This document shows positions 7,280 to 49,888 of a DNA stretch of 64,000 nucleotides, one piece after another. Made by a program: the position numbers and the translations under genes. The notes beneath the pieces were generated by a model. That model searched no databases and had not been told where the DNA came from. It worked only from the letters and a program-made list of their open reading frames with translations. Origin of the DNA: Profundicola chukchiensis (GTDB lineage Bacteria; Bacteroidota; Bacteroidia; Flavobacteriales; Weeksellaceae); contig NZ_JANAIE010000001.1 of the NCBI RefSeq assembly GCF_029664245.1, positions 62,001-126,000 on the forward strand. Reading direction: 5' to 3'. Numbering within the stretch: position 1 is the first letter of the stretch; every line of letters begins with the position of its first letter.

Positions 7280-8524
7280 ATGGAGCTCAAAAGGGTAGTT
7301 ATTACCGGATTAGGCGCACTTACACCAATTGGTAACACGTTCTCAGAATACTGGGAGGGATTAATTAATGGTGTAAGTGGCGCAGCTCCTATTACTTTAT
7401 TTGACGCTTCGCTTTTCAAAACACAATTCGCTTGTGAGGTGAAAAACTTTGATCCTCTAGACCATTATGATCGCAAAGAGGCGCGAAAAATGGATAGGTG
7501 CGGACAATTAGGTATAGTAGCAGCAAGAGAAGCGGTAGCACATAGTCAATTATTGGATGCTAAACCGGATAAAGGAAGAGTGGGCGTTATTTGGGGTTCA
7601 GGAATTGGTGGACTTACCACCTTTGAACAAGAAGTAACTTCTTATGTTAAAGGGAATGGGATTCCAAGGTTCAATCCATTCTTTATTCCGAAAATGATCG
7701 CTGATATCACTCCAGGTCTTATTTCTATGGAATATGGATTTATGGGACCTAATTACACAACAGTTTCTGCTTGTGCGTCATCATCAAATGCTTTGATTGA
7801 TGCGTATAATCTATTAAGATTAGGAAAAGCAGATGCTATTATTACAGGTGGTTCAGAAGCTGCAGTTACGGCTGCAGGTGTAGGTGGATTTAATGCATTA
7901 CATGCGATGTCGACCAGAAACGATGATCCAAAATCAGCATCACGTCCTTTTGATAAAGGAAGAGATGGTTTTGTTTTAGGTGAAGGAGCTGGTGCGATGG
8001 TTCTAGAAGAATTAGAACACGCACTAAAAAGAGGTGCAACAATTTATGCAGAAGTTGTTGGTGGAGGTTTATCTGCCGATGCTTATCATATGACAGCACC
8101 ACATCCGGAAGGATTAGGCGTATATCGTGTAATGAAAAATGCATTAGAGGATGCCGAAATCACAGCAGATAAGATAGATCACATTAACATGCATGCTACC
8201 TCAACGCCTTTAGGTGATATTGCGGAGCCAAAAGCAGTGGTTGATTTATTTGGAGATCACGCAAAAAACATTCAAATCAATGGTACGAAGTCTATGACTG
8301 GCCATTTATTGGGAGCAGCAGGCGCTGTAGAAGGAATTGCCACCGTGGCAGCTATTTATAATAGTTTAGTTCCTCCTACTATCAACCTTCATGAAAAAGA
8401 TGAAGAAGTACCTGATCTTAATTACACCTTTAATAAGGCGGTAGAAAAAGACATCGAATATGCGATGAGCAATACCTTTGGATTTGGTGGACACAATGCA
8501 TGTGTTTTATTCAAAAAATATTAA
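7280..8524 (+). CDS. fabF: Beta-ketoacyl-ACP synthase II
   Basis: 3-oxoacyl-ACP synthase II (KAS II, EC 2.3.1.179), which condenses malonyl-ACP with acyl-ACP in fatty acid elongation. The 414-aa length fits. The Cys-His-His triad is present: Cys165 in VSACASSSN, His305 in NMHATSTPLGD and His342 in GHLLGAAGAVEG, with Lys337 in GTKSMTGH. The C-terminal NTFGFGGHNA glycine motif is intact. It lies between acpP and rnc; the rnc ATG follows directly after the fabF stop codon, so the genes are translationally linked. Confidence 0.97.
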   Translation: MELKRVVITGLGALTPIGNTFSEYWEGLINGVSGAAPITLFDASLFKTQFACEVKNFDPLDHYDRKEARKMDRCGQLGIVAAREAVAHSQLLDAKPDKGRVGVIWGSGIGGLTTFEQEVTSYVKGNGIPRFNPFFIPKMIADITPGLISMEYGFMGPNYTTVSACASSSNALIDAYNLLRLGKADAIITGGSEAAVTAAGVGGFNALHAMSTRNDDPKSASRPFDKGRDGFVLGEGAGAMVLEELEHALKRGATIYAEVVGGGLSADAYHMTAPHPEGLGVYRVMKNALEDAEITADKIDHINMHATSTPLGDIAEPKAVVDLFGDHAKNIQINGTKSMTGHLLGAAGAVEGIATVAAIYNSLVPPTINLHEKDEEVPDLNYTFNKAVEKDIEYAMSNTFGFGGHNACVLFKKY

Positions 8525-35332: not shown

Positions 35333-35337
35333 TATAT

Positions 35338-35367
35338 TTGTTTTATACGTATATATCCATATATTTG
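35338..35367 (+). promoter_or_regulatory. Promoter of the first surface-protein gene
   Basis: -33 TTG (35338-35340), 19-nt spacer and a perfect -7 TATATTTG (35360-35367); a second TATATTTG stands at 35333-35340. The leader would be about 22 nt. Confidence 0.65.
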
Positions 35368-35394: not shown

Positions 35395-38300
35395 ATGAAG
35401 AACTTTTACTTCTGGATGTTAACGGTGGTCAGTAGCACGTTAATGTTTTCAGGAACTAACAACTTTACGTTTGAAACCCAGACCAAGGGTTGGTCTATGT
35501 TTCAAACGCGGGCATTTGGTCCAGAAACAGCATTTAAATACGATGGTAACTTCAACCATGTGTTTTATGCGAATAACTCGGCAACTTTAGCTGAACCTTA
35601 TTGTACCCCTGAAGGAACTAATTCTGGTAGGTACATTAATAACTTTACTACTAGTCCAGGAATTTCTAATTTAAACTCTGGTTTTTCTGAAGGTGGTTAT
35701 GGTGAGTTTAATTCGATGACAGTTTCTCAAGGAAGAGGTGAGTCAGTAAATTTCACTGCAGGTGTAAATGGTGGTACTGCTGGATTCAGAATTTGGGTTG
35801 ATTGGAATCAGGATGGTGTATTTGATACTTCCACAGAAGTAGCTTATGCCTCTAATGGTTATTTAGACAATCATGTAGGTTCCTTTACGGTCCCTACTTC
35901 TGCTCTAACAGGACAGACTACAATGAGAATAGTTAGTCATTGGCTAAGTTCTACTGGTAATATCGATCCATGTGAGACTGGATTTACTTATGGTGAGTTT
36001 GAAGATTATACATTTAATGTAACTACAGAAGCAGTTTGGGATTGTCCAAATCTTCAAGCTAACATTGGAGATTCTTGTGATGATGGTGATGCAACAACTT
36101 CTAATGATACTATTAACGAAAACTGTGAATGCGAAGGTATTCCAGCTGCTACGAATGATGAAGCATGTACTGCTACGACATTAGCATGTGGAGATGTAAT
36201 TACGCAAACTTTGATTGGAGCAACGGAATCTGTAAATGATAGCTGCTATGGCTCGGGCACAAGTGATGTATGGTTTACATTTACTTCAGATGGTTCTCAG
36301 ATATATACAGTAGCAGAGACTTCAAATTTTGACGCAGTTGTTCAACTTTTTGTTGGTGATGATTGTGGAAATTTAGTACAAGCAGCTGCTTGTAAAGACG
36401 GTCCAGAAAACTTTACCGTAACAGAAGCTGGAACTTATTACTTCAGGGTAAGACCTTATTACTCTAGCGACAATGCTGGAACGATTGTAGTTGGACTTAC
36501 TTGTGTTGATTATGATTGTCCAACACTACAGGCTAATATTGGTGATACATGCGACGATGACAATCCAGACACTTTTAATGATGTTGTAAATGAAAACTGT
36601 GAGTGCGAAGGAATTATTCCTCCTGCAGGATCTACACAGGAAAACCCTATTGAATTAACATGTAACGATGACCCTTCAACGCATTCATCAACTACGAGCA
36701 TTGCAACGAATACTACAGGTTGTTCAATGGGAAATAAGGGTCTCTGGTTCTCATTTGAAGGTACTGGTGGAGATATTACTGTAAATTCTTCAGCCACTTT
36801 CGATCACGAAATGTCTATTAATTTTGAGGTTTATGGGGACTTGGTAAGTATAGTGTGTAGAGATCTAGCACTTTCTGGTAACACGGAAACTTATACGATT
36901 GAATCCACAGAAATAAATCAAACGTATTTAGTATATGTGGCTCACTATGGTTCAAATAACACTACAACTGGTGATATAACCATTGGTATTGAATGTGCGA
37001 GTCCACCAGTATTATGTAACGATGTGGACGCTGGAGTAGCTAGCTCTAGCAGTAATGAAGTTTGTGCAGGCCAATCATTCACCTTAACTTCAGAAGGCAG
37101 CACAATGGATGAGGAGAACATTACCGGACTTTCAGGACAGTGGCAAGTCTTGATAGATGGTGAATGGACAGACATTGCAGGCGCCAACAGTACATCTTAT
37201 ACAGTTCAAGATGGTATTAATGCACCAACATCTTATCAGTTTGTTGTAAATTGTTCTGAAGGTAATTCTGATACTTCAAATGAAGTTACTTTAAGTATTA
37301 ATTCAAATATAAATGAATGTTATTGTGATGTGAATTTCTCCAATGCAGTTGAACCAATTACTTATGTTGGATTTGCTGGAATTGATAACACTTCGGATGC
37401 AACTATCGACGGAAGTCCAGCTTGGGAGGATTTTACAGCCCAAACAGCTTTTGTAAACGCAGGCAATGAATATGCTATTGAAGTTAAAGGAAATACAGAT
37501 GGTAATTATACATCTAGAGTAGTCGTTTATATAGATTGGAATCAAGATGGTATTTTTGATAATGCTGCAGGTTCTAATGAAATGTATTCACTTCCAGATA
37601 TTATAAGTTCAACTGGTGAAGATGATATTAGTTCTGAAGGAATGATTGCAGTACCTGAATCGGCAATAGCTGGTAATACGCGTATGCGAGTTATTAAGAG
37701 ATTTCTTACTGTTCCCACTCCTTGTAATACATCAGGATATGGTCAAGCAGAAGATTATACTGTTAATGTGAGTTCGGAGGAGCCAGTAGAATGTGAATCT
37801 CCATTAGGAATCACCGTTAATGATATTACAGAAAGTTCTGCCAATATCACTTGGTCACCAGCTAATGATGGTGATAATATGTGGGAGATTTCTCTTGTTA
37901 CTGGAGGTTTAAGCGCAGATGAAGGTATGATAGATACAGTTTCTGAAACACCAATGTATGATGCAATGGGATTAGATTCAAGTACCACTTATAGAGTTTA
38001 TTTACGTACTATCTGTACAGATGCTAGCAGCGAGTGGGAATATAATGGGGAATTTACAACTAATGAAGCAACTCCTGAATTCGACTGCCCTGAATTACAA
38101 GCTAACATTGGCGATAGTTGTGATGACAGTGATGACACAACAGAAAATGATGTTGTTACAGAAGACTGTGAGTGTGTTGGTACGCCAATCATTGTTGAAC
38201 CTGAATTCGACTGCCCTAGCTTGCAAGCTAATATTGGCGATAGTTGTGATGACGGTGATGACATGACAGAATATGATGTTGTTACAGAAGACTGTGAATG

Positions 38301-39324
38301 TGTTGGTATTCCAATCATTGTGGAACCTGAATTTGACTGTCCTGAACTACAAGCTAACATTGGCGATAGTTGTGATGACGGTGATGACACAACAGAAAAT
38401 GATGTTGTTACAGAAGACTGTGAATGTGCTGGTACGCCAATCATTGTTGAACCTGAATTCGACTGCCCTAGCTTAGAAGCTAACATCGGAGATAGTTGTG
38501 ATGACGGTGATGACATGACAGAAAATGATGTTGTTACAGAAGACTGTGAATGTGTTGGTACGCCAATCATTGTGGAACCTGAATTTGACTGTCCTAGCTT
38601 ACAAGCTAACATTGGTGATAGTTGTGATGACGGTGATGACATGACAGAAAATGATGTTGTTACGGAAGACTGTGAGTGTGTTGGTACGCCAGTTGAACAA
38701 AATGATATGGATGGAGATGGTATTCCAGATGATATCGACAACTGTCCTAGCGTTTACAACCCAGATCAAGCTGATGGAAACGGCGATGGTATTGGTGATG
38801 CTTGTGAGGAATGTGACGTTCCATACATGGTAGAATTAGCTAGAACTAGCCCTACAACGGCTACCTTCAATGCTGGTAACTCTGTGTGGCATTATCAAGG
38901 TTCTGCGAACAGAGCAGGTAGACCATTACGCCCTTATCCAATGTATGGTATGAATGACATGACCGTTCCGCATACGCAGTATGCTTTGGTTCCTGCATTT
39001 GAATACGATGTTTGGTTGAGAACAATCTGTGATGATGGATCATTTAGCCCTTGGGCAGGTCCTTACTTCCTTCCAACCTTCGAAACAGGCGCTAGAAGGA
39101 CTCCAAGAATGGACATTACGCCTAACCCTGCTATTGCAATCGTGAAGATTTCTAAAGTAGAGGCTAAAACTATCGAAGTATTTGATATGAATGGTGGACA
39201 TGTGAAAACATTCAACACCAATGACAATCAATTTGATATGACAGGACTACCAACTGGTAAATATAACTTAAGAGTTATAGATACAGAAGGTAATATCCAC
39301 TACGATCAAGTGATTAAAAAGTAA
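35395..39324 (+). CDS. T9SS surface protein 1: GEVED/PPC/Ig/FN3, repeats, shared C-terminal module
   Basis: 1309-aa exported multidomain protein. In order: signal peptide (about 1-20); GEVED domain (about 65-207, GEFEDYTFNV); one divergent 42-residue Cys/Asp repeat (from 216); PPC-like domain (about 255-370); a second divergent repeat (from 374); another beta domain (about 410-540); Ig-like domain (about 543-640); second GEVED (about 642-795, GQAEDYTVNV); FN3 (about 800-890); five near-identical 42-residue repeats (897-1099); thrombospondin type 3 segment (about 1103-1137); FN3-like module (about 1140-1236); and a type A T9SS sorting domain (1239-1309; PNPAIAIVKISK, GLPTGKYNLRV). It should be secreted across the outer membrane and attached to the cell surface. 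First of five paralogues; probably an adhesin-like stalk. Ligand unknown. Confidence 0.88.
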   Translation: MKNFYFWMLTVVSSTLMFSGTNNFTFETQTKGWSMFQTRAFGPETAFKYDGNFNHVFYANNSATLAEPYCTPEGTNSGRYINNFTTSPGISNLNSGFSEGGYGEFNSMTVSQGRGESVNFTAGVNGGTAGFRIWVDWNQDGVFDTSTEVAYASNGYLDNHVGSFTVPTSALTGQTTMRIVSHWLSSTGNIDPCETGFTYGEFEDYTFNVTTEAVWDCPNLQANIGDSCDDGDATTSNDTINENCECEGIPAATNDEACTATTLACGDVITQTLIGATESVNDSCYGSGTSDVWFTFTSDGSQIYTVAETSNFDAVVQLFVGDDCGNLVQAAACKDGPENFTVTEAGTYYFRVRPYYSSDNAGTIVVGLTCVDYDCPTLQANIGDTCDDDNPDTFNDVVNENCECEGIIPPAGSTQENPIELTCNDDPSTHSSTTSIATNTTGCSMGNKGLWFSFEGTGGDITVNSSATFDHEMSINFEVYGDLVSIVCRDLALSGNTETYTIESTEINQTYLVYVAHYGSNNTTTGDITIGIECASPPVLCNDVDAGVASSSSNEVCAGQSFTLTSEGSTMDEENITGLSGQWQVLIDGEWTDIAGANSTSYTVQDGINAPTSYQFVVNCSEGNSDTSNEVTLSINSNINECYCDVNFSNAVEPITYVGFAGIDNTSDATIDGSPAWEDFTAQTAFVNAGNEYAIEVKGNTDGNYTSRVVVYIDWNQDGIFDNAAGSNEMYSLPDIISSTGEDDISSEGMIAVPESAIAGNTRMRVIKRFLTVPTPCNTSGYGQAEDYTVNVSSEEPVECESPLGITVNDITESSANITWSPANDGDNMWEISLVTGGLSADEGMIDTVSETPMYDAMGLDSSTTYRVYLRTICTDASSEWEYNGEFTTNEATPEFDCPELQANIGDSCDDSDDTTENDVVTEDCECVGTPIIVEPEFDCPSLQANIGDSCDDGDDMTEYDVVTEDCECVGIPIIVEPEFDCPELQANIGDSCDDGDDTTENDVVTEDCECAGTPIIVEPEFDCPSLEANIGDSCDDGDDMTENDVVTEDCECVGTPIIVEPEFDCPSLQANIGDSCDDGDDMTENDVVTEDCECVGTPVEQNDMDGDGIPDDIDNCPSVYNPDQADGNGDGIGDACEECDVPYMVELARTSPTTATFNAGNSVWHYQGSANRAGRPLRPYPMYGMNDMTVPHTQYALVPAFEYDVWLRTICDDGSFSPWAGPYFLPTFETGARRTPRMDITPNPAIAIVKISKVEAKTIEVFDMNGGHVKTFNTNDNQFDMTGLPTGKYNLRVIDTEGNIHYDQVIKK
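38083..38691 (+). repeat. Five tandem 126-bp repeats in surface protein 1
   Basis: Units start at 38083, 38209, 38335, 38461 and 38587 (the last lacks its tail). Each encodes 42 residues of the form DCPxLQANIGDSCDDG, then DDxTENDVVTEDCECxG, then a TPIIVEPEF linker. Copies differ at only a few bases. Four Cys per unit and many Asp suggest disulfide- or calcium-stabilised modules. Confidence 0.95.
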
Positions 39325-39350
39325 TTATTATTAACCCTTAAATAGATAAA

Positions 39351-39380
39351 TAAGCCGCTCAATGAGCGGCTTATTTTTTT
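39351..39380 (+). terminator. Terminator of surface gene 1
   Basis: Stem TAAGCCGCTC/GAGCGGCTTA with an AAT loop and a T run. The core GCCGCTC(A/T)(A/T)TGAGCGGC recurs after all five surface genes. Confidence 0.93.
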
Positions 39381-39476
39381 GTATAAACTTAAATGCTTTT
39401 TGACTATAATTTAAACCCAACCCTAATATATAAAGTTTTAGCACAAAAGTTGGAGGAGGTTGAATTAGACTAATTT

Positions 39477-39527
39477 ACCGTTTATACAGCATTCCTTACC
39501 GTTTATACAATATTTCTTGCCGTTCAT
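39477..39527 (+). promoter_or_regulatory. Three LytTR-type 9-bp direct repeats, 21-bp period, upstream of surface gene 2
   Basis: ACCGTTTAT (39477-39485), ACCGTTTAT (39498-39506) and GCCGTTCAT (39519-39527). The first two match the LytTR/AlgR-family consensus [TA][AC][CA]GTTN[AG][TG] at every position and the third differs only at its first base. The period is exactly 21 bp (9 + 12), two helical turns. A -7-like TAATTTAG lies at 39560-39567, 41 bp from the start of the third repeat. Probable binding array for a LytTR response regulator; no such regulator is in the window. Confidence 0.7.
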
Positions 39528-39594
39528 ACAATTTTCACACAAGTTTTAAACTAATTTGATAATTTAGTGTTACTAACAATTAAAACTTAACACA

Positions 39595-41862
39595 ATGAAA
39601 AATTTTTACTTCTGGATGTTAACTGTATTTTATAGCACGTTAATATTCAGCTCTCCCAACAATTTAAATTCTGAACATTCATCCCCTGATGAAACGTGGT
39701 ATCAGACTAAAGCTTTTAACCTAGACACCTCCTTTAACTATGAAGGTAAGTTTAACAATGTCTTTTATGCTAACAATTCTGTGAACCCAGAATATTGTGA
39801 TGTATCAATTAGTATTATTCACCCAATAACACTAGTTAGCTTTGGGGACATCAACAACTCAACTGCTGCAGACTCAACCGTTGGCTATGAAGACTTCACC
39901 CATTTATCTACAGAATTATCCCTATTAGAAAATGTTGAAATTACTCTTAAAGGCTATACCGATTCATCGAATGGTTATTTTGCTTTTATTGATTGGAATC
40001 AAAATGGCATTCTTAATGATCCAGGTGAATGGTATTGGTTAGGGGGCCATGGTCCTAGCTCCGGTGAGGATGACATTTCCCAAATCACTTCATTTCAAGT
40101 CCCTATAGATGCCTTGCCAGGAGTTACACGTATGCGTATAATTAAATATGCTAGAGGGAATTTTAGTGGCAATCCTTGCGGCCGCCATTATGATCGAGGA
40201 CAGATAGAGGATTACTCTATAATAGTAACAGAAAATATTATGTGGGAATGCCCTAACTTGGAGGCTCAAATAGGCGATGCGTGTGATGATGGCGATCCAA
40301 ATACAAACCATGATACAGTAACGGAAGACTGCCTATGTGTAGGAGAACCAGCCCCAATTAATGATGATTGTATAGATGCAATACCATTAACCTGTGGAGA
40401 TAGATGGATTCCTGGGACAACTTATGGAGCAACATATAGCGAACTCGGTAACATGTCTTGCCAAAATGAAGTAGGTCAGGATGTTTTCTACAGTATAGAT
40501 GCAGTTCCAGGGATAACTTATCACATAGGAATAAGTCGTCAAACACTAGGATATAGAGCAGCTATAGCTATTTATTCGGGGACATGTGGTGATTTAACTG
40601 AAATAGGTTGTAGCTCTGGTTCTTATCCTGAATATTATGATTTTTATGTCGATGAACCTTCAACAATTTATGTTAGAACTTTCGATAGGTCTTATAATAG
40701 CCAAAGAGGGGACTTTACTATTTCATTAAATTGTTCGTCAAATTACACCTGTCCTAACTTACAAGCTAACATTGGCGATAGTTGTGATGACGGTGATGAC
40801 ACGACAGAAAATGATGTTGTTACGGAAGACTGTGAATGTGTTGGTACGCCAATCATTGTTGAACCTGAATTTGACTGTCCTAGCTTACAAGCTAACATTG
40901 GTGACAGTTGTGATGACGGTGATGACACAACAGTAAATGATGTTGTTACAGAAGACTGTGAATGTGCTGGTACGCCAATCATTGTTGAACCTGAATTTGA
41001 CTGTCCTAGTTTACAAGCTAACATTGGCGATAGTTGTGATGACGGTGATGACACAACAGTAAATGATGTTGTTACAGAAGACTGTGAATGTGTTGGTTCG
41101 CCAATCATTGTGGAACCTGAATTTGACTGTCCTAGTTTACAAGCTAACATTGGCGACAGTTGTGATGACGGTGATGACATGACAGAAAATGATGTTGTTA
41201 CAGAAGACTGTGAATGTGTTGGCACGCCAGTTGAACAAAATGATATGGATGGAGATGGTATTCCAGATGATATCGACAACTGTCCTAGCATTTACAACCC
41301 AGATCAAGCTGATGGAAACGGAGATGGTATTGGTGATGCTTGTGAGGAATGTGACGTTCCATACGATGTAGTTCTAAACAGAACGAGCCCGACGACAGCT
41401 ACATTTACTGCGGGGAATACCGCATGGCATTATCAAGGTTCTGCGAACAGAGCAGGTAGACCATTACGTCCTTATCCAATGTATGGTATGAATGACATGA
41501 CTGTTCCGCATACGCAGTATGCTTTGGTTCCTGCATTTGAATATGACGTTTGGTTAAGAACAATCTGTGATGATGGATCATTTAGCCCTTGGACAGGTCC
41601 TTACTTCCTTCCAACCTTTGAGACAGGCGCTAGAAGAACTCCTAAAATGGATTTAACGCCTAACCCTGCTATTGCAATCGTGAAGATTTCTAAAGTAGAG
41701 GCTAAAACTATCGAAGTATTTGATATGAATGGTGGACATGTGAAAACATTCAACACCAATGATAATAAATTTGATATGACAGGACTACCAACTGGTAAAT
41801 ATAACTTAAGAGTGATAGATGCAGATGGTAATATCCACTACGATCAAGTGATTAAGAAGTAA
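39595..41862 (+). CDS. T9SS surface protein 2: GEVED-like and repeats, shared C-terminal module
   Basis: 755-aa paralogue of protein 1, sharing even the N-terminal phrase NFYFWMLTV. In order: signal peptide (about 1-20); GEVED-type domain (about 64-212, RGQIEDYSIIV, with FIDWNQNG); one divergent Cys/Asp repeat (from 218); a PPC-like domain (about 255-382, DVFYSIDAVPG); four near-identical 42-residue repeats (from 385); thrombospondin type 3 segment (about 550-584); FN3-like module (about 588-683); type A T9SS sorting domain (685-755). Its promoter region carries three LytTR-type repeats, unlike gene 1. The last 500 bp are nearly identical to gene 1 apart from a 60-bp divergent patch (41365-41424). 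Cell-surface protein, ligand unknown. Confidence 0.88.
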   Translation: MKNFYFWMLTVFYSTLIFSSPNNLNSEHSSPDETWYQTKAFNLDTSFNYEGKFNNVFYANNSVNPEYCDVSISIIHPITLVSFGDINNSTAADSTVGYEDFTHLSTELSLLENVEITLKGYTDSSNGYFAFIDWNQNGILNDPGEWYWLGGHGPSSGEDDISQITSFQVPIDALPGVTRMRIIKYARGNFSGNPCGRHYDRGQIEDYSIIVTENIMWECPNLEAQIGDACDDGDPNTNHDTVTEDCLCVGEPAPINDDCIDAIPLTCGDRWIPGTTYGATYSELGNMSCQNEVGQDVFYSIDAVPGITYHIGISRQTLGYRAAIAIYSGTCGDLTEIGCSSGSYPEYYDFYVDEPSTIYVRTFDRSYNSQRGDFTISLNCSSNYTCPNLQANIGDSCDDGDDTTENDVVTEDCECVGTPIIVEPEFDCPSLQANIGDSCDDGDDTTVNDVVTEDCECAGTPIIVEPEFDCPSLQANIGDSCDDGDDTTVNDVVTEDCECVGSPIIVEPEFDCPSLQANIGDSCDDGDDMTENDVVTEDCECVGTPVEQNDMDGDGIPDDIDNCPSIYNPDQADGNGDGIGDACEECDVPYDVVLNRTSPTTATFTAGNTAWHYQGSANRAGRPLRPYPMYGMNDMTVPHTQYALVPAFEYDVWLRTICDDGSFSPWTGPYFLPTFETGARRTPKMDLTPNPAIAIVKISKVEAKTIEVFDMNGGHVKTFNTNDNKFDMTGLPTGKYNLRVIDADGNIHYDQVIKK
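40747..41229 (+). repeat. Four tandem 126-bp repeats in surface protein 2
   Basis: Units begin at 40747, 40873, 40999 and 41125 (the last is shortened before the type 3 segment). They are almost identical to the units of surface protein 1, including the IIVEPEF linker. Confidence 0.95.
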
Positions 41863-41888
41863 TTAGTATTAACCTTTAAATAGATAAA

Positions 41889-41918
41889 TAAGCCGCTCAA
41901 TGAGCGGCTTATTTTTTT
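41889..41918 (+). terminator. Terminator of surface gene 2
   Basis: TAAGCCGCTC/GAGCGGCTTA stem, AAT loop, seven T. Identical in stem and loop to the one after gene 1. Confidence 0.93.
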
Positions 41919-42533
41919 GGGATTTACCTTTAAATACGTTTGTACAGCCATAAGGATAATCTCTCTATAAACAACTATCCCTGGTAATCTGCACAAAATA
42001 AAATACTCAAAATATCCAAAGCCCTTGAATAATATTTATTTTGAGCAAATAATATTTAAATAATTTTTATAATAGTTCATTTATTATTATCTTTAAGGTA
42101 TCAACTACTCAAAAAACTTATTTTTATGAAAAAACATTCCCACTCTTTACTTGACTTGCTATTCCTATTGATTACAAAATAATTCAATAAGCATTATTTA
42201 CACTTACAGCCAAGCATGAAACTCAAAAGTCTATATTAACTTTCTGAGGAAGTATATGAATGTGAACAACAAAACTATTAAACCTTTTAAAAACGAGTGT
42301 TTTCTGTCTCTAGTTCAGAAAATTAACTGAAATGTGAATATTATTCACATCATTAAAAGCTCAAGGCTAAATGGCGCTTAAAGCGTATATCAATCTATCA
42401 ATATTTTTGATCAAATATTCTTTAGAATTTTTGATACGATGAAAAGATTATTATTTGATAGATTAATATGACTAAACCGAAATTCAAATAAACTAAATTA
42501 GGAAACCATTCATTATTTCCCTTATAGTTGAAT
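41919..42533. other. AT-rich spacer with inverted repeats
   Basis: No gene is supported. An 18-codon frame at 42126 (MKKHSHSLLD...) looks like a signal-peptide start that stops at once. A perfect inverted repeat ATGTGAAT-att-ATTCACAT lies at 42332-42350. A second pair of 15-bp arms with one mismatch (42387-42401 and 42455-42469, core AATCTATCAA/TTGATAGATT) could form a long hairpin. Confidence 0.5.
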
Positions 42534-42659
42534 TTGAAAATCAATTTAGAATTTTATAGCAACACTGCTATTGTATTAGGCTTGATTTCTATTTTGGCAA
42601 TACTTGTCTTATGGAAATACTCTTCAATAAAAAAAACACAATCTACTCATTATCAATAA
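42534..42659 (+). CDS. Possible 41-aa single-pass membrane peptide
   Basis: A TTG at 42534 (or 42528) opens a frame of 41 codons ending 15 bp before surface gene 3. The peptide begins MKINLEFYSN, has a 17-residue hydrophobic stretch (TAIVLGLISILAILVLW) and ends in a basic tail (KYSSIKKTQ), a plausible single-pass topology. There is no ATG, no clear promoter and no homologue I can name. It could equally be chance or a remnant in AT-rich DNA. Confidence 0.25.
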   Translation: MKINLEFYSNTAIVLGLISILAILVLWKYSSIKKTQSTHYQ

Positions 42660-42674
42660 TTAAAAATTAAAATC

Positions 42675-44576
42675 ATGAAAAAGTCTATATTATTAATTCT
42701 TGCATTTCTAAGCTTTCAACTTAGTGCTCAGATGACTACAGCCCAGCTAGAAACAAGGCCTGAAGTTTCGTTAGAAATGCAAACACAAATACAGCAGGCA
42801 TTAAGTAATTCTACGGCGATTAATCCTCATACCAACAGAACTATGACATATACATATGTTGGTTCATTTCAAACCGATGCTGGTCCGAATTGGACAACTA
42901 ATCCAGATGTATATAGTGGTGTAGAAGCCGCTGCTCAAATTTTTGGCGGCAATCCATCGGATTATGCTATTTCTACAAATTCTAATACGACAGATCCTAA
43001 TACTATTACCCATACAGCATGGGCAAGCATTTGGGGAATAACAGGTTGTCACGAAGTTGCAGAAGATTATTCTTTAGACCTAGGAAATCCTGGCTATAAT
43101 GATCCAGGAGGAGCCAATACAGCTACCTCGTCTTATGTTGATGACAATTGCACCTCTAATAACATAAACCATGTTTGGCTTGTCAACCATACTCCTTCAA
43201 ATTCATTCATCACCACTTGGCAGACAACATCAGATAATGAATCCATTACAATTCCCACCACAGGAAGTGGATATAATTATAATATAGATTGGGGGGATGG
43301 AGATACACAAACAGGTCTGTTAGGAGATGCAACACATACCTATTCAACTGCTGGGCTTTATACGATTGAGATTAGCGGAGATTTTCCACGTATTTATTTT
43401 AATAATACTGGTGATAAAGATAAAATTATGTCAATTGAACAATGGGGAGATATTAACTGGACTTCCATGGAAAATGCGTTTACGGGATGTAGTAATTTAA
43501 TTAGTAATGCCTTGGATATGCCAGATCTTTCAATGGTAACTAATATGAAAGGCATGTTCGGTTATGCAACTTCTTTTAATGGTGACGCGAATATAATGAA
43601 TTGGGATGTTAGCAATGTAACTAATATGCATGGTATGTTTGGCGGAGCCTCTAATTTCAATGCTGACATAAACAATTGGAATGTGGAAAACGTGAGCAAC
43701 ATGAAGCTTATGTTTAGCTATGCAACTTCATTTAATCAAGATTTAAGTTCATGGAATGTTGGAAGCGTTATAAATATGGATAGTATGTTCCGAGGCGCTA
43801 CCGCTTTTGATCAAAATATAGGCAATTGGAATGTCACCAACGTAGTAAACATGTCGAACATGTTGAAGGGCGCTTCTCTTTCAACCGAAAACTATGACGC
43901 TTTATTGATTGGATGGAGCACTCAATCTCTGAATAACGGAATCGATTTTCACGCTGGAGATAGCATGTATTGCTCAGGTGAAGATGCAAGGCAAGAAATT
44001 ATAGACAATTTTGGATGGACTATCACAGATCTTGGCTTAAATGAAGGTTGTACCTTAGAGCCATGTGGAATTCCCTATGATGTGGTGCTAACAAGAACTA
44101 GTGGGACAACGGCTACCTTTATGGCTGGTAATACAACTTGGCATTACCAAGGATCTGCCAATAGAAGCGGTAGACCTTTACGCCCTTACCCAATGTATGG
44201 CATGAACAACATGACAGTTCCGCATACACAATATGCTCTTGTACCTGCCTTTTCATATGATATTTGGTTAAGAACTATTTGTGACGATAATAGTTTTAGT
44301 CCATGGGCTGGACCTTTTTCTTTACCTACATTTGAAGGAAACATCACTAAAGTTTCTTCCATGAATTTATCCCCTAACCCAACCGTTTCAATGGTTAAGA
44401 TAAATAAAGTTGACGCTCGAACTATTGAAGTATTTGACATGAGTGGCACACATATTAAAACTTTTATTACTCAAAACAATCAATTTGATTTAACCGGCTT
44501 ACCAGTTGGAAAATATAACTTAAGAGTTATAGATGCAGAAGGTAATATCCACTATGATCAAGTGATTAAAAAGTAA
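42675..44576 (+). CDS. T9SS surface protein 3: PKD and BspA/DUF285 repeats, shared C-terminal module
   Basis: 633 aa. A clear signal peptide (1-19, FQLSAQ) is followed by an unrecognised N-terminal part (about 20-170, with 'HTAWASIWGITGCHEVAEDYS'-like text around 115-130), a PKD-like domain (about 175-245; NIDWGDGDTQTG, HTYSTAGLYTI), and four BspA-family/DUF285 repeats (about 265-425) of the pattern MFxxAxxFNxDixxWNVxxVxNM. Then come the FN3-like module (about 469-555) and a type A T9SS sorting domain (about 563-633). It lacks the 42-residue Cys/Asp repeats and the type 3 segment of its paralogues. BspA-type repeats elsewhere serve in adhesion, so a surface-binding role is inferred. Confidence 0.87.
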   Translation: MKKSILLILAFLSFQLSAQMTTAQLETRPEVSLEMQTQIQQALSNSTAINPHTNRTMTYTYVGSFQTDAGPNWTTNPDVYSGVEAAAQIFGGNPSDYAISTNSNTTDPNTITHTAWASIWGITGCHEVAEDYSLDLGNPGYNDPGGANTATSSYVDDNCTSNNINHVWLVNHTPSNSFITTWQTTSDNESITIPTTGSGYNYNIDWGDGDTQTGLLGDATHTYSTAGLYTIEISGDFPRIYFNNTGDKDKIMSIEQWGDINWTSMENAFTGCSNLISNALDMPDLSMVTNMKGMFGYATSFNGDANIMNWDVSNVTNMHGMFGGASNFNADINNWNVENVSNMKLMFSYATSFNQDLSSWNVGSVINMDSMFRGATAFDQNIGNWNVTNVVNMSNMLKGASLSTENYDALLIGWSTQSLNNGIDFHAGDSMYCSGEDARQEIIDNFGWTITDLGLNEGCTLEPCGIPYDVVLTRTSGTTATFMAGNTTWHYQGSANRSGRPLRPYPMYGMNNMTVPHTQYALVPAFSYDIWLRTICDDNSFSPWAGPFSLPTFEGNITKVSSMNLSPNPTVSMVKINKVDARTIEVFDMSGTHIKTFITQNNQFDLTGLPVGKYNLRVIDAEGNIHYDQVIKK

Positions 44577-44605
44577 TGAGTATTAACCTTTAAATAAATA
44601 AAAAC

Positions 44606-44629
44606 GCCGCTCAATGAGCGGCTTTTTTT
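44606..44629 (+). terminator. Terminator of surface gene 3
   Basis: GCCGCTC/GAGCGGC stem with AAT loop and seven T, the same core as after the other surface genes. Confidence 0.92.
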
Positions 44630-44721
44630 GTTTACAACTTAGGGTCAACTTGAAGAACTCAATAATATGTCAAAATAACTTTGAACCGAATATAAACCTA
44701 AAACTTCACGCACTAACGAAT

Positions 44722-44772
44722 ACCGTTTAAACAGCATTTTGAGCACTTTATACATCATATCCTACCGTTTAA
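44722..44772 (+). promoter_or_regulatory. Three LytTR-type direct repeats, 21-bp period, upstream of surface gene 4
   Basis: ACCGTTTAA (44722-44730), GCACTTTAT (44743-44751, degenerate) and ACCGTTTAA (44764-44772), again with an exact 21-bp period. A -7-like TAACTTAG lies at 44805-44812, 41 bp from the start of the third repeat. Both that distance and the 73-76 bp from third repeat to ATG match surface gene 2. Confidence 0.65.
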
Positions 44773-44836
44773 AAAGTTTTCTTAAATCGACGATGCATAA
44801 GTTATAACTTAGCCTATATACTTTAAATAAAAGTTC

Positions 44837-46888
44837 ATGAAAACAATTCAACTACTCAGTTTGAGCCTCGCATTAGCTGTAGGCTCCACAAATTTGGTAA
44901 GTGCTCAGCATTCACCATTGGATCAGATGCCAAAGCCCGGTACAAATGCATATAAAACAGCTAAGAAAAATGGGGATTTAAATGCATTTCAACCCCAATC
45001 TATTCCCTCATTACAGAAAAATAATATTTCTAGTCAGGGATTACAAAGTCCAGCCATGGACAATATGTCTGTAGGATGTTATATTCCACATGATATAAAT
45101 ACCTATACCATGATTCCTATGAATGACGATGACTCATCCGATGAAATAATTTTACCTTTTACATTTAATATGTATGGCACGGAATACACTTCAGTGTTTG
45201 TAAATAACAACGGAAACATAACATTTGATGAAGAGTTCTCTAATTACACAGCGGATGGTTTTCCTATCGAAACGCCTATGATAGCACCATTTTGGGCAGA
45301 TGTTGATACAAGAGGGACAGGATCGGACGCAGTTTGGTATAAAGTTACTCCACATGCTTTGTATGTGAATTATCCAGGAGTTGGATACTATGATTCAGAA
45401 GACGACAAACTCAATACATTTCAAGTGATTATTACTGATGGCACTGACCCAGTAATTGGCATTGGGAATAATGTAGCTTTCTACTATGGAGATATGCAGT
45501 GGACAACAGGAGAGGCTTCCGACGGTATCAATGGATTTGGAGGAACACCATCAACGGTGGGAGTTAACAGCGGAGATAATGTTAACTTTTTTCAAATTGG
45601 AAGATTTATTCAACCTGGAGATACTTTCAATGGTGCTTATGATATGAATGGTGGTGTAGACTGGTTGGATAATAAATGTTTCATTTTTAATGTAGATTCA
45701 GAAAGCACATCCAACATTCCACCTTTATTATTAAACATTTCCAGCACTTCTGAAACCATTTGCGAGGGCGAAAGCAAAGATATAAACTTCAGTTTTATCG
45801 GTCCAGAAGCAGGACAAGTAATTGCAATTAACCTTGTTGATCCTTCAAATACAGGTAGTTCAATCATTACAAGCATGGAAGGTGACTCAACCAATGGCAT
45901 TTTAACTTTAACAGGAGCAACCGCTGGCACTTATAACCTACAATTAGTTGCAACAGATAATGGAGTACCATCTGAATCGACTACGGTTAATATTGAATTA
46001 ATTATTGAGAATTGCGAGGTAATCGATTGTCCCGAGTTAGGTATAAGCATAGGCGATGCATGTGACGATGGCGACGACAACACTGAAAATGATGTTGTTA
46101 CTGCAGATTGCGAATGTGCTGGTACACCAATCGTAGTTGAGCCAGAATTTGATTGCCCTAGCCTACAAGCTAACATTGGTGATAGTTGTGATGACGGTAA
46201 TGACATGACAGAGAATGACGTAATAACTTCTGACTGTGATTGTATTGGTACGTCAGTAGAACAAAATGATTCGGACGGAGACGGCACTCCAGACAATATC
46301 GACAACTGCCCTAACGTTTACAATCCTGATCAAGCTGATGGGAACGGAGATGGTATTGGCGATGCTTGTGAAGAATGTGGTCCTCCATATATGGTAGAAT
46401 TAGCAAGAACCAGTGGCACTACTGCTACATTTAATGCTGGTAATTCCGTATGGCACTACCAAGGTTCTGCCAACAGAGCAGGCAGACCACTACGTCCTTA
46501 CCCTATGTATGGCATGAATGATATGACTGTTCCACATACGCAATACGCTTTGGTCCCTGCATTTGAATACGATGTTTGGTTAAGAACTATATGCGATGAC
46601 GGAAGTTTTACATCTTGGACAGGACCTTACTTCCTGCCTACATTTGAAATGGGCTCAAGAGTTAATTTATCCATGAATTTATCCCCTAACCCCTCTTCAT
46701 CTATTGTGAAAATATCGAAAGTAGATGCTAAGTTGATTGAGGTTTACAACATGAATGGCACACTCTTAAAAACATTAACACCTTCTGAAAATCAATTTGA
46801 TTTAACTGGATTACCTGTTGGAAAATATAACTTAAGAGTTATTGACGCTAATGGAAACACCCACTACGATCAAGTGATTAAAAAGTAA
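44837..46888 (+). CDS. T9SS surface protein 4: nidogen-like domain, two repeats, shared C-terminal module
   Basis: 683 aa. Signal peptide (1-24, NLVSAQ); linker; a nidogen-like domain (about 73-285) with ILPFTFNMYGTEYTSVFVNNNG split over two strands, the 'IAPFWADVDTRG' signature, and 'GGVDWLDNKCF'; a beta domain (about 298-392); two 42-residue Cys/Asp repeats (from 397; 46025-46150 and 46151-46255), more divergent than in proteins 1 and 2; a thrombospondin type 3 segment (about 476-512); the FN3-like module (about 516-605); a type A T9SS sorting domain (about 613-683). Preceded by LytTR-type repeats like gene 2. Expected on the cell surface. Confidence 0.88.
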   Translation: MKTIQLLSLSLALAVGSTNLVSAQHSPLDQMPKPGTNAYKTAKKNGDLNAFQPQSIPSLQKNNISSQGLQSPAMDNMSVGCYIPHDINTYTMIPMNDDDSSDEIILPFTFNMYGTEYTSVFVNNNGNITFDEEFSNYTADGFPIETPMIAPFWADVDTRGTGSDAVWYKVTPHALYVNYPGVGYYDSEDDKLNTFQVIITDGTDPVIGIGNNVAFYYGDMQWTTGEASDGINGFGGTPSTVGVNSGDNVNFFQIGRFIQPGDTFNGAYDMNGGVDWLDNKCFIFNVDSESTSNIPPLLLNISSTSETICEGESKDINFSFIGPEAGQVIAINLVDPSNTGSSIITSMEGDSTNGILTLTGATAGTYNLQLVATDNGVPSESTTVNIELIIENCEVIDCPELGISIGDACDDGDDNTENDVVTADCECAGTPIVVEPEFDCPSLQANIGDSCDDGNDMTENDVITSDCDCIGTSVEQNDSDGDGTPDNIDNCPNVYNPDQADGNGDGIGDACEECGPPYMVELARTSGTTATFNAGNSVWHYQGSANRAGRPLRPYPMYGMNDMTVPHTQYALVPAFEYDVWLRTICDDGSFTSWTGPYFLPTFEMGSRVNLSMNLSPNPSSSIVKISKVDAKLIEVYNMNGTLLKTLTPSENQFDLTGLPVGKYNLRVIDANGNTHYDQVIKK

Positions 46889-46912
46889 TTATCATTAATT
46901 TTTAAATAGCTA

Positions 46913-46940
46913 TAAGCCGCTCAATGAGCGGCTTATTTTT
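46913..46940 (+). terminator. Terminator of surface gene 4
   Basis: TAAGCCGCTC/GAGCGGCTTA stem with AAT loop and T run, as after genes 1 and 2. Confidence 0.93.
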
Positions 46941-47118
46941 GTTTTTATGAAAATTAACTTGATTTTAAAAAATATAAAACCAATATAATATGCAAGCCAA
47001 TTATTCTTTACCACTAATTCCGATTTTAACCGAGTTATGATTTTGTGTAAGTATCAAAAAAATAATTTTCCACTGGATTAAAATTATTGATGTTGAAATT
47101 ATAAGCATTGAAGTATAA

Positions 47119-47260
47119 AATCATCATGGACTTTCATCATTATCCATAACAGATCCAATATTAAATATTAGTTTATCTGTATTATTTTCAGGTAACTCTT
47201 ATAATGAAAATTATAGATGTTATGGGAAAAACTTATAAAGAACAAATCAATAAGAATTAA
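47119..47260 (+). pseudogene. Probable frameshifted remnant of a T9SS sorting domain
   Basis: In one frame the stretch reads SITDPILNISLSVLFSGNSYN, resembling the first strand of a type A sorting domain. After a shift at about 47202 the next frame reads MKIIDVMGKTYKEQINKN and stops, matching the following 'kIyDvmGk' strand. Neither frame has a start or upstream domains. It fits the end of a former surface-protein gene between genes 4 and 5, but the match is short and judged by eye. Confidence 0.35.
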
Positions 47261-47398
47261 AGTTTAAAAAAAACCTAGATGTTTCAATATTATTTATATC
47301 TCAAATCAAATGAATTCTACTGATAATCAGCGCTAAATTTTGTTATAATTATTATAAATTCCTAAATTAGAACATTATTAACCAATAAATTCATAATT

Positions 47399-49888
47399 AT
47401 GAAGAAATTTACTTTTTTTCTCTGTGCAATCTTCCTATCTCTTATAGGATATGCACAGAATTCAGAAACATTTACAAACCTTGACAACGCTTCAGGTGGT
47501 GGAAATGGAATATCAAGTTCATATCAAACATGGACGTGGATAGGAGACAATGGTGCAACATGGGAAGCTACAGATGCAAGAAAAGATCAAAATATTGATG
47601 GAAAAGCAATCACTGTTCGAGATGGAAGTTTAACCACAACGATTTCTGGAGGCATTGGTAACTTAACGCTTACAACCCAACGTAAATTTACCGGTGGCTC
47701 AGGTAATTTAACCGTTTTAGCCAATGGAGAGGTTGTAGGAACTTTTGCGTACGGTGATTCTGAGCAAACCAATACAATCGCCGGAATTAATCTATCGGGT
47801 AATGTAGCCTTAGAAATACAGACTCCAGGTAATGGTGATAGAGTGGCTATGGACAACTTGAATTGGACAAATCCCATTGATAGTCCAGATTATGACTGCC
47901 CAAGTTCACAAGCCAACATTGGCGATAGTTGTGATGACGGAAACCCACTTACAAATAACGATACGATTAATGAAGATTGCGAATGTGTTGGTACACCAGT
48001 AGACGTTGGTAATCTATGCGGTTTTGAGAATTTTGATAATGCTGATCTTTCAGGGTCATATGAAGATGGTAGCTTTGTAGGAAATGATAATATCACTTGG
48101 ACTTATATAGAAGCTAGAAGTGAATCTGCAAATTCTGATACTGATGTTAATGCACTACTTGATGGAAATGCAATCATATTAAGAAACTCAGATACTGGTA
48201 GTAAGATTTACTCTAGTACTATTTCTGGCGGAATCAGTAGGTTCTCTGTTAAATTATATAAAGCATTTACTGGTGGCGGAGATAGACAAGTGGAACTATT
48301 TATTAACGGAGTATCCTATGGAAATTCAACAGTATTTGATGATTATAATGAACACATCTTTACAGTAGATGATATTGATTTGGCGGGTGATTTCACCTTA
48401 GAAATTAGAAATACTACAAGCAAACAAATCATTATAGATGATATTTCATGGACTTGCTTTGAGGATGAAGGAGGACCAGCTGATTGTGAAGCTCCAGATA
48501 CGCTTGAAGTAAATAACATTACTGAGAACAGTGTTGACTTAATTTGGAGTGGAGGAAGCATTGAATATCATTGGCTCGTTGCCTATGGAGAATCTCCTTA
48601 TACACCTTCCGAGGAAGATGGAGAACTAGTTTATGGTTTTATTGACTACGATTCAACGAATTTTATGACACATTCTTTAGGAGAGTTGAATCCTGGAACC
48701 CAGTATGATGTTTATGTAAAAACAATGTGCGAAGAATCATGGGATAATTTAAGTGATTGGATTCAAACATCCTTCACAACTGAAGCTCCAGCACAATGTT
48801 TAGCTCCACAATCAGCAGAAGCTTCTGACATTACTCCTCATACTGCTAACATATCATGGACTGGCGGTAGCGCTGCTGAGGCATGGATTATTGCTTATGG
48901 CGTAGCACCTTATACTCCAATGGAAAGTGATGAGGAACTGGTAATAGGTAATGCACAATATTTATTGGAGAGATTAGAGGCTGATACAGAGTATGAGTTT
49001 TATATCAGAACAGCTTGTGATGAAGATCTTGAAAACTTAAGTGATTGGCTATTTATTACGTTTACAACGGAAGCAGCAGAACCTTGTTTAGCTCCTGAAA
49101 CTATTGATGTTACAGAAATCACTGAAACTTCAGCACAAGTTTCTTGGTCTGCAGGTAGCCAAGAATATTGGTTTGTTTCTTATGGAGAGTCTCCTTTTGA
49201 GCCTTCAGGAGATGTTACGATGGTTAGCGGTAACCCAAGTATTAGTTTAGATAATTTAGAGCCTGGAACAAGCTATGATGTGCATATTCAATCAATTTGT
49301 AATGATTTTGACACCGCAAGTGAGTGGACCACTGTAACATTCACTACAACAAGTACAGAACCTGAGCCAGAAGAATGTGATATACCTTATGGTGTTGCAT
49401 TAAATAGAATTAGCCCTACGAGTGCAACATTTGTTGCTGGAAACTCAGTTTGGCATTACCAAGGTTCTGCAAATAGAGCAGGTAGACCATTACGTCCATA
49501 TCCAATGTATGGAATGAATGATATGACAGTTCCACATACTCAACATAGACTTGTTCCTGCATTTGATTATGATGTTTGGATTAGAACAATCTGTGAAGAC
49601 GGAACGTTTAGTCCATGGGCAGGGCCATTCTATCTTCCAACGTATGAAGATGCGTCTAGACGTACACCAGACATGATTCTTAGCCCTAACCCAGCTGTTG
49701 CGATGGTAAGTATCTCTAAAGTGGATGCTAGAACCATTGAAGTGTTTGATATGAACGGAAGTCATATTAAAACTTTCAATACAAAAGACAGTCAATTTGA
49801 TGTAACGGGATTACCAACTGGTAAATATAACCTAAGAATTATAGACGCTGATGGTAGTATACATTATGATCAGATGATCAAGAAGTAA
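47399..49888 (+). CDS. T9SS surface protein 5: twin beta-sandwich, three FN3, shared C-terminal module
   Basis: 829 aa. Signal peptide (1-20, IGYAQ); a beta-sandwich domain (about 21-163; 'WIGDNGATWEATDARKDQN', GNLTLTTQRKFTGG); one Cys/Asp repeat (from 166; 47894-47998); a second copy of the beta-sandwich domain (about 203-355; 'NITWTYIEARSES', RFSVKLYKAFTGGGDRQ); three FN3 domains (about 362-460, 466-557, 562-655), each starting C-x-AP; the FN3-like module (about 661-752); a type A T9SS sorting domain (about 759-829). No thrombospondin type 3 segment and no LytTR-type repeats upstream. The last member of the cluster; probably an adhesin or carbohydrate-binding surface protein. Confidence 0.88.
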   Translation: MKKFTFFLCAIFLSLIGYAQNSETFTNLDNASGGGNGISSSYQTWTWIGDNGATWEATDARKDQNIDGKAITVRDGSLTTTISGGIGNLTLTTQRKFTGGSGNLTVLANGEVVGTFAYGDSEQTNTIAGINLSGNVALEIQTPGNGDRVAMDNLNWTNPIDSPDYDCPSSQANIGDSCDDGNPLTNNDTINEDCECVGTPVDVGNLCGFENFDNADLSGSYEDGSFVGNDNITWTYIEARSESANSDTDVNALLDGNAIILRNSDTGSKIYSSTISGGISRFSVKLYKAFTGGGDRQVELFINGVSYGNSTVFDDYNEHIFTVDDIDLAGDFTLEIRNTTSKQIIIDDISWTCFEDEGGPADCEAPDTLEVNNITENSVDLIWSGGSIEYHWLVAYGESPYTPSEEDGELVYGFIDYDSTNFMTHSLGELNPGTQYDVYVKTMCEESWDNLSDWIQTSFTTEAPAQCLAPQSAEASDITPHTANISWTGGSAAEAWIIAYGVAPYTPMESDEELVIGNAQYLLERLEADTEYEFYIRTACDEDLENLSDWLFITFTTEAAEPCLAPETIDVTEITETSAQVSWSAGSQEYWFVSYGESPFEPSGDVTMVSGNPSISLDNLEPGTSYDVHIQSICNDFDTASEWTTVTFTTTSTEPEPEECDIPYGVALNRISPTSATFVAGNSVWHYQGSANRAGRPLRPYPMYGMNDMTVPHTQHRLVPAFDYDVWIRTICEDGTFSPWAGPFYLPTYEDASRRTPDMILSPNPAVAMVSISKVDARTIEVFDMNGSHIKTFNTKDSQFDVTGLPTGKYNLRIIDADGSIHYDQMIKK

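Follow-up and report, generated by a model that had tools for sequence, protein, structure and literature searches.

Triple direct repeats upstream of two surface protein genes

We analyzed a stretch of 64,000 nucleotides from the Profundicola chukchiensis genome (contig NZ_JANAIE010000001.1, positions 62,001 to 126,000 of the forward strand), called the window throughout. It holds five neighboring genes for surface proteins with sorting tails of the type IX secretion system (T9SS). Upstream of two of them, starting at 39595 and 44837, triple direct repeats were found, which we interpret as probable operators of a LytTR-type response regulator whose gene lies outside the window in this genome. 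The respective features are:

39476..39538 (+): putative triple operator of LytTR type before gene 39595, with cores at 39477, 39498 and 39519, period 21
39560..39567 (+): -7-like box TAATTTAG, at +41 from the start of the third repeat (gene 39595)
39595..41862 (+): surface protein with GEVED domain, sub-threshold TSP3 match, shared C-terminal module and T9SS sorting tail; predicted regulon member
44721..44783 (+): putative triple operator of LytTR type before gene 44837, with cores at 44722, 44743 and 44764
44805..44812 (+): -7-like box TAACTTAG, at +41 from the start of the third repeat (gene 44837)
44837..46888 (+): surface protein with NIDO domain, shared module and T9SS sorting tail; predicted regulon member

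The repeats read ACCGTTTAT (39477), ACCGTTTAT (39498) and GCCGTTCAT (39519) at gene 39595, and ACCGTTTAA (44722), GCACTTTAT (44743) and ACCGTTTAA (44764) at gene 44837. In both cases the period was exactly 21 bp, just as a first-pass annotation of this DNA had described it; this is far above chance. The consensus [TA][AC][CA]GTTN[AG][TG] proposed there held only in part: two of the six half-sites matched it strictly, while the other four deviated, and the half-site turned out to be longer than the 9-bp core, with approximately 13 bp and a sequence of about TACCGTTTATACA. According to a passage of PMC4847170, a LytTR operator consists of two 9-11-nt repeats with 11-13 nt in between; 9-nt cores, 12-nt spacers and three repeats were observed here. 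Iterons or CRISPR-like repeats were rejected due to the small number of units and their placement before promoters.

Searching the 2.62-Mb genome (108 contigs, termed G000) for TACCGTTTATACA-N8-TACCGTTTATACA, with a maximum of 3 mismatches allowed, yielded 6 matches versus none for a reversed-pattern control; with the longer half-site, the 21-bp-spaced motif was thus not a frequent chance product. A looser search for ACCGTTNA pairs, allowing 2 mismatches at most, was discarded as non-discriminating (29 matches versus 21 in the reversed control).

The operator set of the genome and its LytTR regulator

Operators were detected by scanning fetched loci with a weight matrix and by three models based on sequence only, R1, R2 and R3, for which 7, 12 and 13 operators were used, respectively. 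R1 was trained on this genome alone, with 7 of its 8 operators; all 8 were part of the R2 and R3 training. With R2, 8 operators were found in the genome, all at E<=1e-12, with the next match at E 0.04. R1 recovered the eighth operator, which had been absent from its training. The two window operators, both training members, reached E-values of 6.1e-18 (gene 39595) and 2.4e-14 (gene 44837) in 128 kb searched, and no further site of the window was found at E<=5. The six predicted operators outside the window are:

L034:8084 (-): before a third surface gene with the shared C-terminal module, on contig C98
L033:11904 (+): before the LytTR response regulator gene, in autoregulatory position
L033:11754 (-): before an OmpA operon divergent from the regulator, second gene DUF4870-like
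L033:7869 (-): before a 70-aa lipoprotein-like gene
L033:8263 (-): before a stretch without sizeable open reading frame (ORF) that ends in a terminator
L151:7050 (+): before a stretch without sizeable ORF that ends in a terminator-like hairpin

The regulator is encoded on contig C32 (L033:12009-12752) and carries a receiver domain (PF00072, E 2.3e-20) and a LytTR domain (PF04397, E 3.2e-19), both above the curated cutoffs. By eye, the receiver retains its acidic pair as well as the Asp in DIEMP and the Lys in LKP. The same triple operator lies directly upstream of its gene, the position expected for autoregulation, and autoregulation via upstream repeats is documented for other LytTR systems in the relevant part of PMC6193735. 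Mismatch-free matches of the loose search outside the window were found at two places only, both directly upstream of this regulator. The assignment as LytTR operators made in the first-pass annotation was thereby strengthened, as the operator precedes the genome's own LytTR regulator and recurs in a congener together with the orthologue. The search for LytTR regulators suggested there gave three genome matches, representing two intact regulators (on contigs C32 and C43) and one relic. The latter, at C32:86390 (L036:6391-6582), is a LytTR domain interrupted by a stop codon in frame.

Some of the names used for the targets are of limited strength. DUF4870 for the second gene of the OmpA operon is borderline (24.2 bits versus a cutoff of 25), and the homologue in the congener G001 gave no DUF4870 match, though it is 62% identical. 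For the 70-, 77- and 74-aa products no Pfam name above cutoff was obtained, and the labels "lipoprotein-like" and "membrane protein" were assigned by eye. In the leader of the OmpA operon (L033:11570-11630, -) a possible CCCAAGGAA...TTCCTTGGG hairpin was noticed by eye close to the start codon.

Promoter geometry

The -7-like boxes at +41 before both window genes were found again at 39560 and 44805, and the fixed spacing could be extended to +41 or +42: in 10 of 12 operators (8 from this genome, 4 from G001), a box matching TAnnTTTG at no fewer than 7 of 8 positions begins at one of these distances. None of 5,000 shuffles reached this result, and none of 1,000 did so for any of the distances 25-74. 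The promoters had also been called weak, which applies to the surface gene boxes, each one base off TAnnTTTG, and not to some other operators with a perfect box. The absence of a -33 element was of little informative value, because none is identifiable in F. johnsoniae according to a passage of PMC7366714.

In the transcription start map of F. psychrophilum, as given in part of PMC9723704, TAnnTTTG is located at -12 to -5. Applying this register, the repeat G of the +42 operators falls on -51 and -72, and that of the +41 operators is shifted nearer by one base. A passage of PMC10602386 reports that changing G-51 and G-72 impaired the RgaR-controlled promoter PspoZ of C. difficile, showing direct control. 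With the PspoZ numbering taken to run from the transcription start, the predicted register of our operators is supported by its agreement with a proven LytTR target.

We are aware that binding alone does not give the sign of regulation, and that real LytTR sites might mainly serve repression or silencing. The sites lie wholly upstream of the -7 box in 10 of the 12 operators, however, and their register equals that of the LytTR activator sites in the relevant passages of PMC6193735 and PMC10602386, which makes such a repressor role very unlikely. We therefore infer from position that the sites would activate transcription.

Operators in related genomes

In the congener G001, R1 detected four sites with E-values from 2.3e-7 to 1.9e-3, which constitutes an independent test. 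They precede the orthologous regulator, a divergent operon whose first gene is the 62% identical homologue of the DUF4870-like protein, an ORF-less stretch ending in a terminator, and a 258-aa gene. G001 thus keeps the predicted autoregulatory and divergent sites. R3 found six G001 sites at E<1e-5, comprising those four, C2:176598 and C7:69358, and two weaker ones. The site at C2:176598, part of the R3 training, lies approximately 355 nt upstream of a gene for a T9SS surface protein. The site at C7:69358, outside of the training (E 5.5e-6), precedes a 74-aa protein, with a -7 match that is weak by eye. One G001 site has a single 20-bp step at the distal repeat. One of the two weaker sites lies at C11:265251 (L230:1501-1593; E 0.008) and has 21-bp steps, with TAAATTTG at +42 by eye.

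The regulator orthologue of G001 is 62% identical, while the sole match of the second congener, G002, at E<=1e-20 is only 32% identical. G002 had no R1 site at E<=0.01, and its best R3 site reached only E 0.04. Among the congeners, the presence of predicted operators therefore tracks the regulator, a relation supported by G001 having both and G002 neither. This bears on the question whether the shared geometry merely reflects promoters copied along with their genes, without present function. The promoters of 39595 and the C98 surface gene are homologous, with 77% identity over 134 nt, those of 39595 and 44837 72% over 61 nt, so that the geometries at these three promoters are not fully independent. 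Nevertheless, the period and the +41/+42 spacing are also seen at unrelated genes and in a second species, and no operator better than E 0.04 was found in the congener lacking the regulator; copying as the sole cause appears hardly credible.

A different question is which regulator binds the operators. A second intact LytTR regulator with its own TPR (tetratricopeptide repeat) kinase is encoded on C43 of the same genome. In G001, the other of the two weaker sites, at C7:97866 (L207:4867-4954, -; E 0.003), carries TATTTTTG at +41 and lies before a second LytTR kinase-regulator operon, and for this reason several LytTR systems may share the site type or be wired together. The operators could accordingly belong to the C43 regulator or be common to both. 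We consider this unlikely, since no site was listed before the C43 kinase-regulator operon, and the C43 regulator shares just 37% identity with that of G001, compared to 62% for the C32 pair, and hence does not explain the sites kept in G001.

Outside the genus the operator was rare. R1 at E<=0.01 gave a match in 7 of 99 relatives. At E<=0.001, matches were obtained in 4 (R1) and 7 (R3) of 320 family genomes, with more than two matches only in this genome and G001. Beyond the genus, single weak or partial matches were found in addition to a four-repeat site in G026, a genome of another genus. There, at L152:6900-7400, four ACCGTT(T/C)ATG repeats are spaced at 21 bp with two more about 380 bp away, and they adjoin another locus of a kinase and a regulator of LytTR type by eye. 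The best named regulator matches (Maribacter, Flagellimonas and others), which we take to be Flavobacteriaceae, are 44% identical, and an operator was expected at their genes. The expectation was not borne out, as the triple scan of 80 named loci gave a best score of about 10 versus 30-60 for real operators. Repeat pairs in 8 upstream regions of these regulators were no better than shuffles, in a test of low power, because the true site of our genome scored 10/10 and shuffles reached 10 once in 100.

Different control of the surface genes

The remaining surface genes of the window and the promoter of one of them are:

35337..35367 (+): promoter-like pair TTTG-N19-TATATTTG before the operator-less gene 35395
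35395..39324 (+): surface protein of the same family, no operator
42675..44576 (+): surface protein of the same family (DUF285), no operator
47399..49888 (+): surface protein of the same family (fn3), no operator

All five window proteins and the C98 protein carry the C-terminal sorting domain PF18962 above cutoff, marking them as T9SS cargo. The best repeat pairs upstream of 35395, 42675 and 47399 scored -10.3, -6.2 and -6.2, compared to 42.1 and 31.7 at the real operators. This genome has 8 genes with the shared C-terminal module, namely the five of the window, the C98 gene and a further two at C32:178-180 kb. Three of them (39595, 44837, C98) are preceded by the operator; with R2, none was found in the stretches with the two C32 genes or the single G002 module gene. 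Gene 35395 has the pair TTTG-N19-TATATTTG instead. As 9 such pairs occur on both strands of the window, approximately 0.08 are expected across the six examined 180-nt upstream regions. The proposal that members of one surface family are under different control is therefore backed at the level of sequence.

At E<=1e-20 the module was found at 8 places in G001, at one in G002 and in no other of the 320 family genomes. This confinement to the genus suggests that the module genes arose by duplication or gene conversion. By eye, the module is near-invariant in the five neighboring genes (window 35395-49888), with WHYQGSANRAGRPLRPYPMYGMNDM inside an fn3-like stretch, and several of these genes contain repeats of about 40 residues of the IGDSCDDGDD type. 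Near-identical terminator-like palindromes GCCGCTCAATGAGCGGC follow 35395 (39350-39380) and 42675 (44600-44628). In the C98 surface gene (L034:7965-7917, -), the signal-peptide-like ATG start and the body are out of frame across a T10 tract, which is due either to phase variation at a contingency tract or to an error of the assembly.

Candidate small RNAs

The two ORF-less targets are somewhat more probably small RNAs than anything else. The first candidate extends from L033:8166 (-) to a terminator at 8003-7980, in a region with one terminator found versus 0.3 expected; the second runs from L151:7146 (+) to a hairpin near 7360, which may also serve a convergent gene. The predicted RNAs would measure approximately 195 and 217 nt. 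The longest same-strand ORFs comprise 13 and 10 aa, and the -7 boxes match at 7 of 8 and 8 of 8 positions, respectively. Folding compared to shuffles gave z-scores of -5.3 and -5.5, to which the terminator hairpins contribute in part. In G001, an operator with TATATTTG at +42 is likewise followed by a terminator-like hairpin within about 80 nt.

Sensor kinases of the regulator

A seven-transmembrane (7TM) protein with 7TMR-DISM and His_kinase domains is encoded co-directionally, 3 nt downstream of the regulator gene. In both species its His is kept, while NPHF is changed to NSHF, DNGxG to DNGIY or DNGYY, and G2 is lost; the Asn of the N box is missing in G001 only, where it is replaced by Phe. 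No Pfam HATPase_c match was obtained at E<=1, and the motif set of an active histidine kinase (H box, N box, G1 DxGxG, G2) is incomplete in this protein. By comparison, an intact G1 motif D[N/D]GxG was seen in all 14 kinases at related regulators and in all 10 family homologues read; one of these homologues has NSHF and four have a stop within the matched span. Judged by these motifs, the 7TM protein is likely catalytically dead.

A LytS kinase of the TPR type is found near the locus in both species, with no regulator gene alongside. Its motifs are intact (NPHF, ENALWHG and DNGVG in both species). Its HATPase_c matches (E 3.3e-4 in G000, 0.088 in G001) are under the curated cutoff, and weak, sub-cutoff matches were observed for all three TPR kinases scanned. 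In G036, one genome of another genus, a regulator and a TPR kinase 42% and 40% identical to these form a single operon. Among the proteins compared, this pair was nearer to the C32 regulator and the local TPR kinase than to the C43 pair (210 versus 160 and 382 versus 193 bits, respectively). Between G000 and G001, identities are 45% for the 7TM protein, 62% for the regulator and 57% for the TPR kinase. On this basis we give even odds that the regulator receives its phosphate from the TPR kinase. As for the 7TM protein, it might be a pseudokinase receptor, a phosphatase or an inhibitor; PMC4211667 and PMC9491836 describe pseudokinase partners in two-component signaling, outside LytTR systems. 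Tentatively, and with somewhat less than even confidence, we propose that the decayed 7TM pseudokinase, made together with the activator, senses and restrains it while the TPR kinase phosphorylates it. This would be a form half-way between a two-component system and a LytTR regulatory system (LRS), and in the Bacteroidota it would govern adhesins, envelope proteins and small RNAs.

A model for the regulon

With a probability of about 0.82, we regard the repeats as operators of the C32 LytTR regulator that act as activator sites. In this model the intact TPR-type kinase near the locus would phosphorylate the regulator, with the adjacent 7TM pseudokinase modulating it. The phosphorylated regulator would bind the repeats, which are presented on the same face of the DNA by the 21-bp spacing, just upstream of a TAnnTTTG-type promoter and activate transcription. 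Activation of its own operon would create positive feedback. The divergent OmpA operon, the small lipoprotein-like gene, the two likely small RNAs and three genes for T9SS surface proteins, two of them in the window, would be further targets.

Several observations weigh against this model. The second intact regulator on C43 makes cross-binding possible. The reference repeat of each operator was chosen by hand after viewing the sequences, before the shuffle test was performed, and in 2 of the 12 operators the -7 box has only 6 of 8 matches. The operator is narrow in range, given that no comparable one was found at the Maribacter-type regulators. Using R2, no operator was detected in the stretches holding all 8 module genes of G001 (7 of the 8 starts located), and the lipoprotein-like targets of this genome and G001 share no significant similarity. 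Neither small RNA candidate matches any Rfam family, and the two have just short matches in common.

If true, a single switch turns on chosen adhesins, envelope proteins and small RNAs jointly, and the operator logo allows LytTR regulons of relatives to be read from sequence. The system would then also illustrate a two-component pair possibly turning into an activator-inhibitor pair.

Comparison with known LytTR systems

In Gram-positive bacteria, LytTR systems govern quorum sensing and competence as well as toxin control, and AgrA of S. aureus exerts feedback on its own operon. For the Bacteroidota, the papers on LytTR in Bacteroidetes and Flavobacteria obtained from an open library, as represented by titles, the beginnings of abstracts and passages of PMC5395568, described no such regulon. 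The literature searched contained solely the predicted autoregulatory repeats of two Bacteroides operons: according to a passage of PMC6193735, LRS-like operons of B. thetaiotaomicron and B. ovatus have TATCTTTG promoters preceded by predicted repeats of 11 bp that are 11 bp apart.

The closest parallels are VirR of C. perfringens and RgaR of C. difficile, likewise LytTR-type regulators with direct repeats 21 bp apart (G-51/G-72 at PspoZ) and, according to parts of PMC10602386, with few dispersed targets, small RNAs among them. Unlike there, our system has three repeats, a Bacteroidota-type promoter, T9SS surface cargo and a presumably autoregulated operon with a degenerate 7TM kinase, and its small RNAs are predicted only. 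AgrA, a LytTR activator, similarly drives a regulatory RNA, which a passage of PMC10602386 names as RNAIII. In contrast to AgrA, the kinase here is of another type, and no agrB/agrD-like gene was noticed by eye among the ORFs around the regulator, where no dedicated search was made.

With the LRS (HdrRM, BrsRM), where a LytTR regulator is paired with a membrane inhibitor, our system would share autoregulation through repeats (9-bp ones in the LRS, mostly 12 bp apart) and a membrane partner of the regulator, as described for the LRS in part of PMC6193735. Of the LRS features, upstream repeats and a co-directional 7TM gene 3 nt behind the regulator were observed here. Unlike in the LRS, the receiver domain is kept, the membrane protein appears to be a kinase relic, three repeats are present, and dispersed targets exist besides the own operon. 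BtsS/BtsR finally, as outlined in PMC10653868, also combine a 7TM LytS-type sensor with a LytTR regulator. Unlike BtsS, the sensor described here is of the 7TMR-DISM type by Pfam and without ATP-binding motifs; the loss of these motifs in both species, with an intact TPR kinase nearby, is new here.

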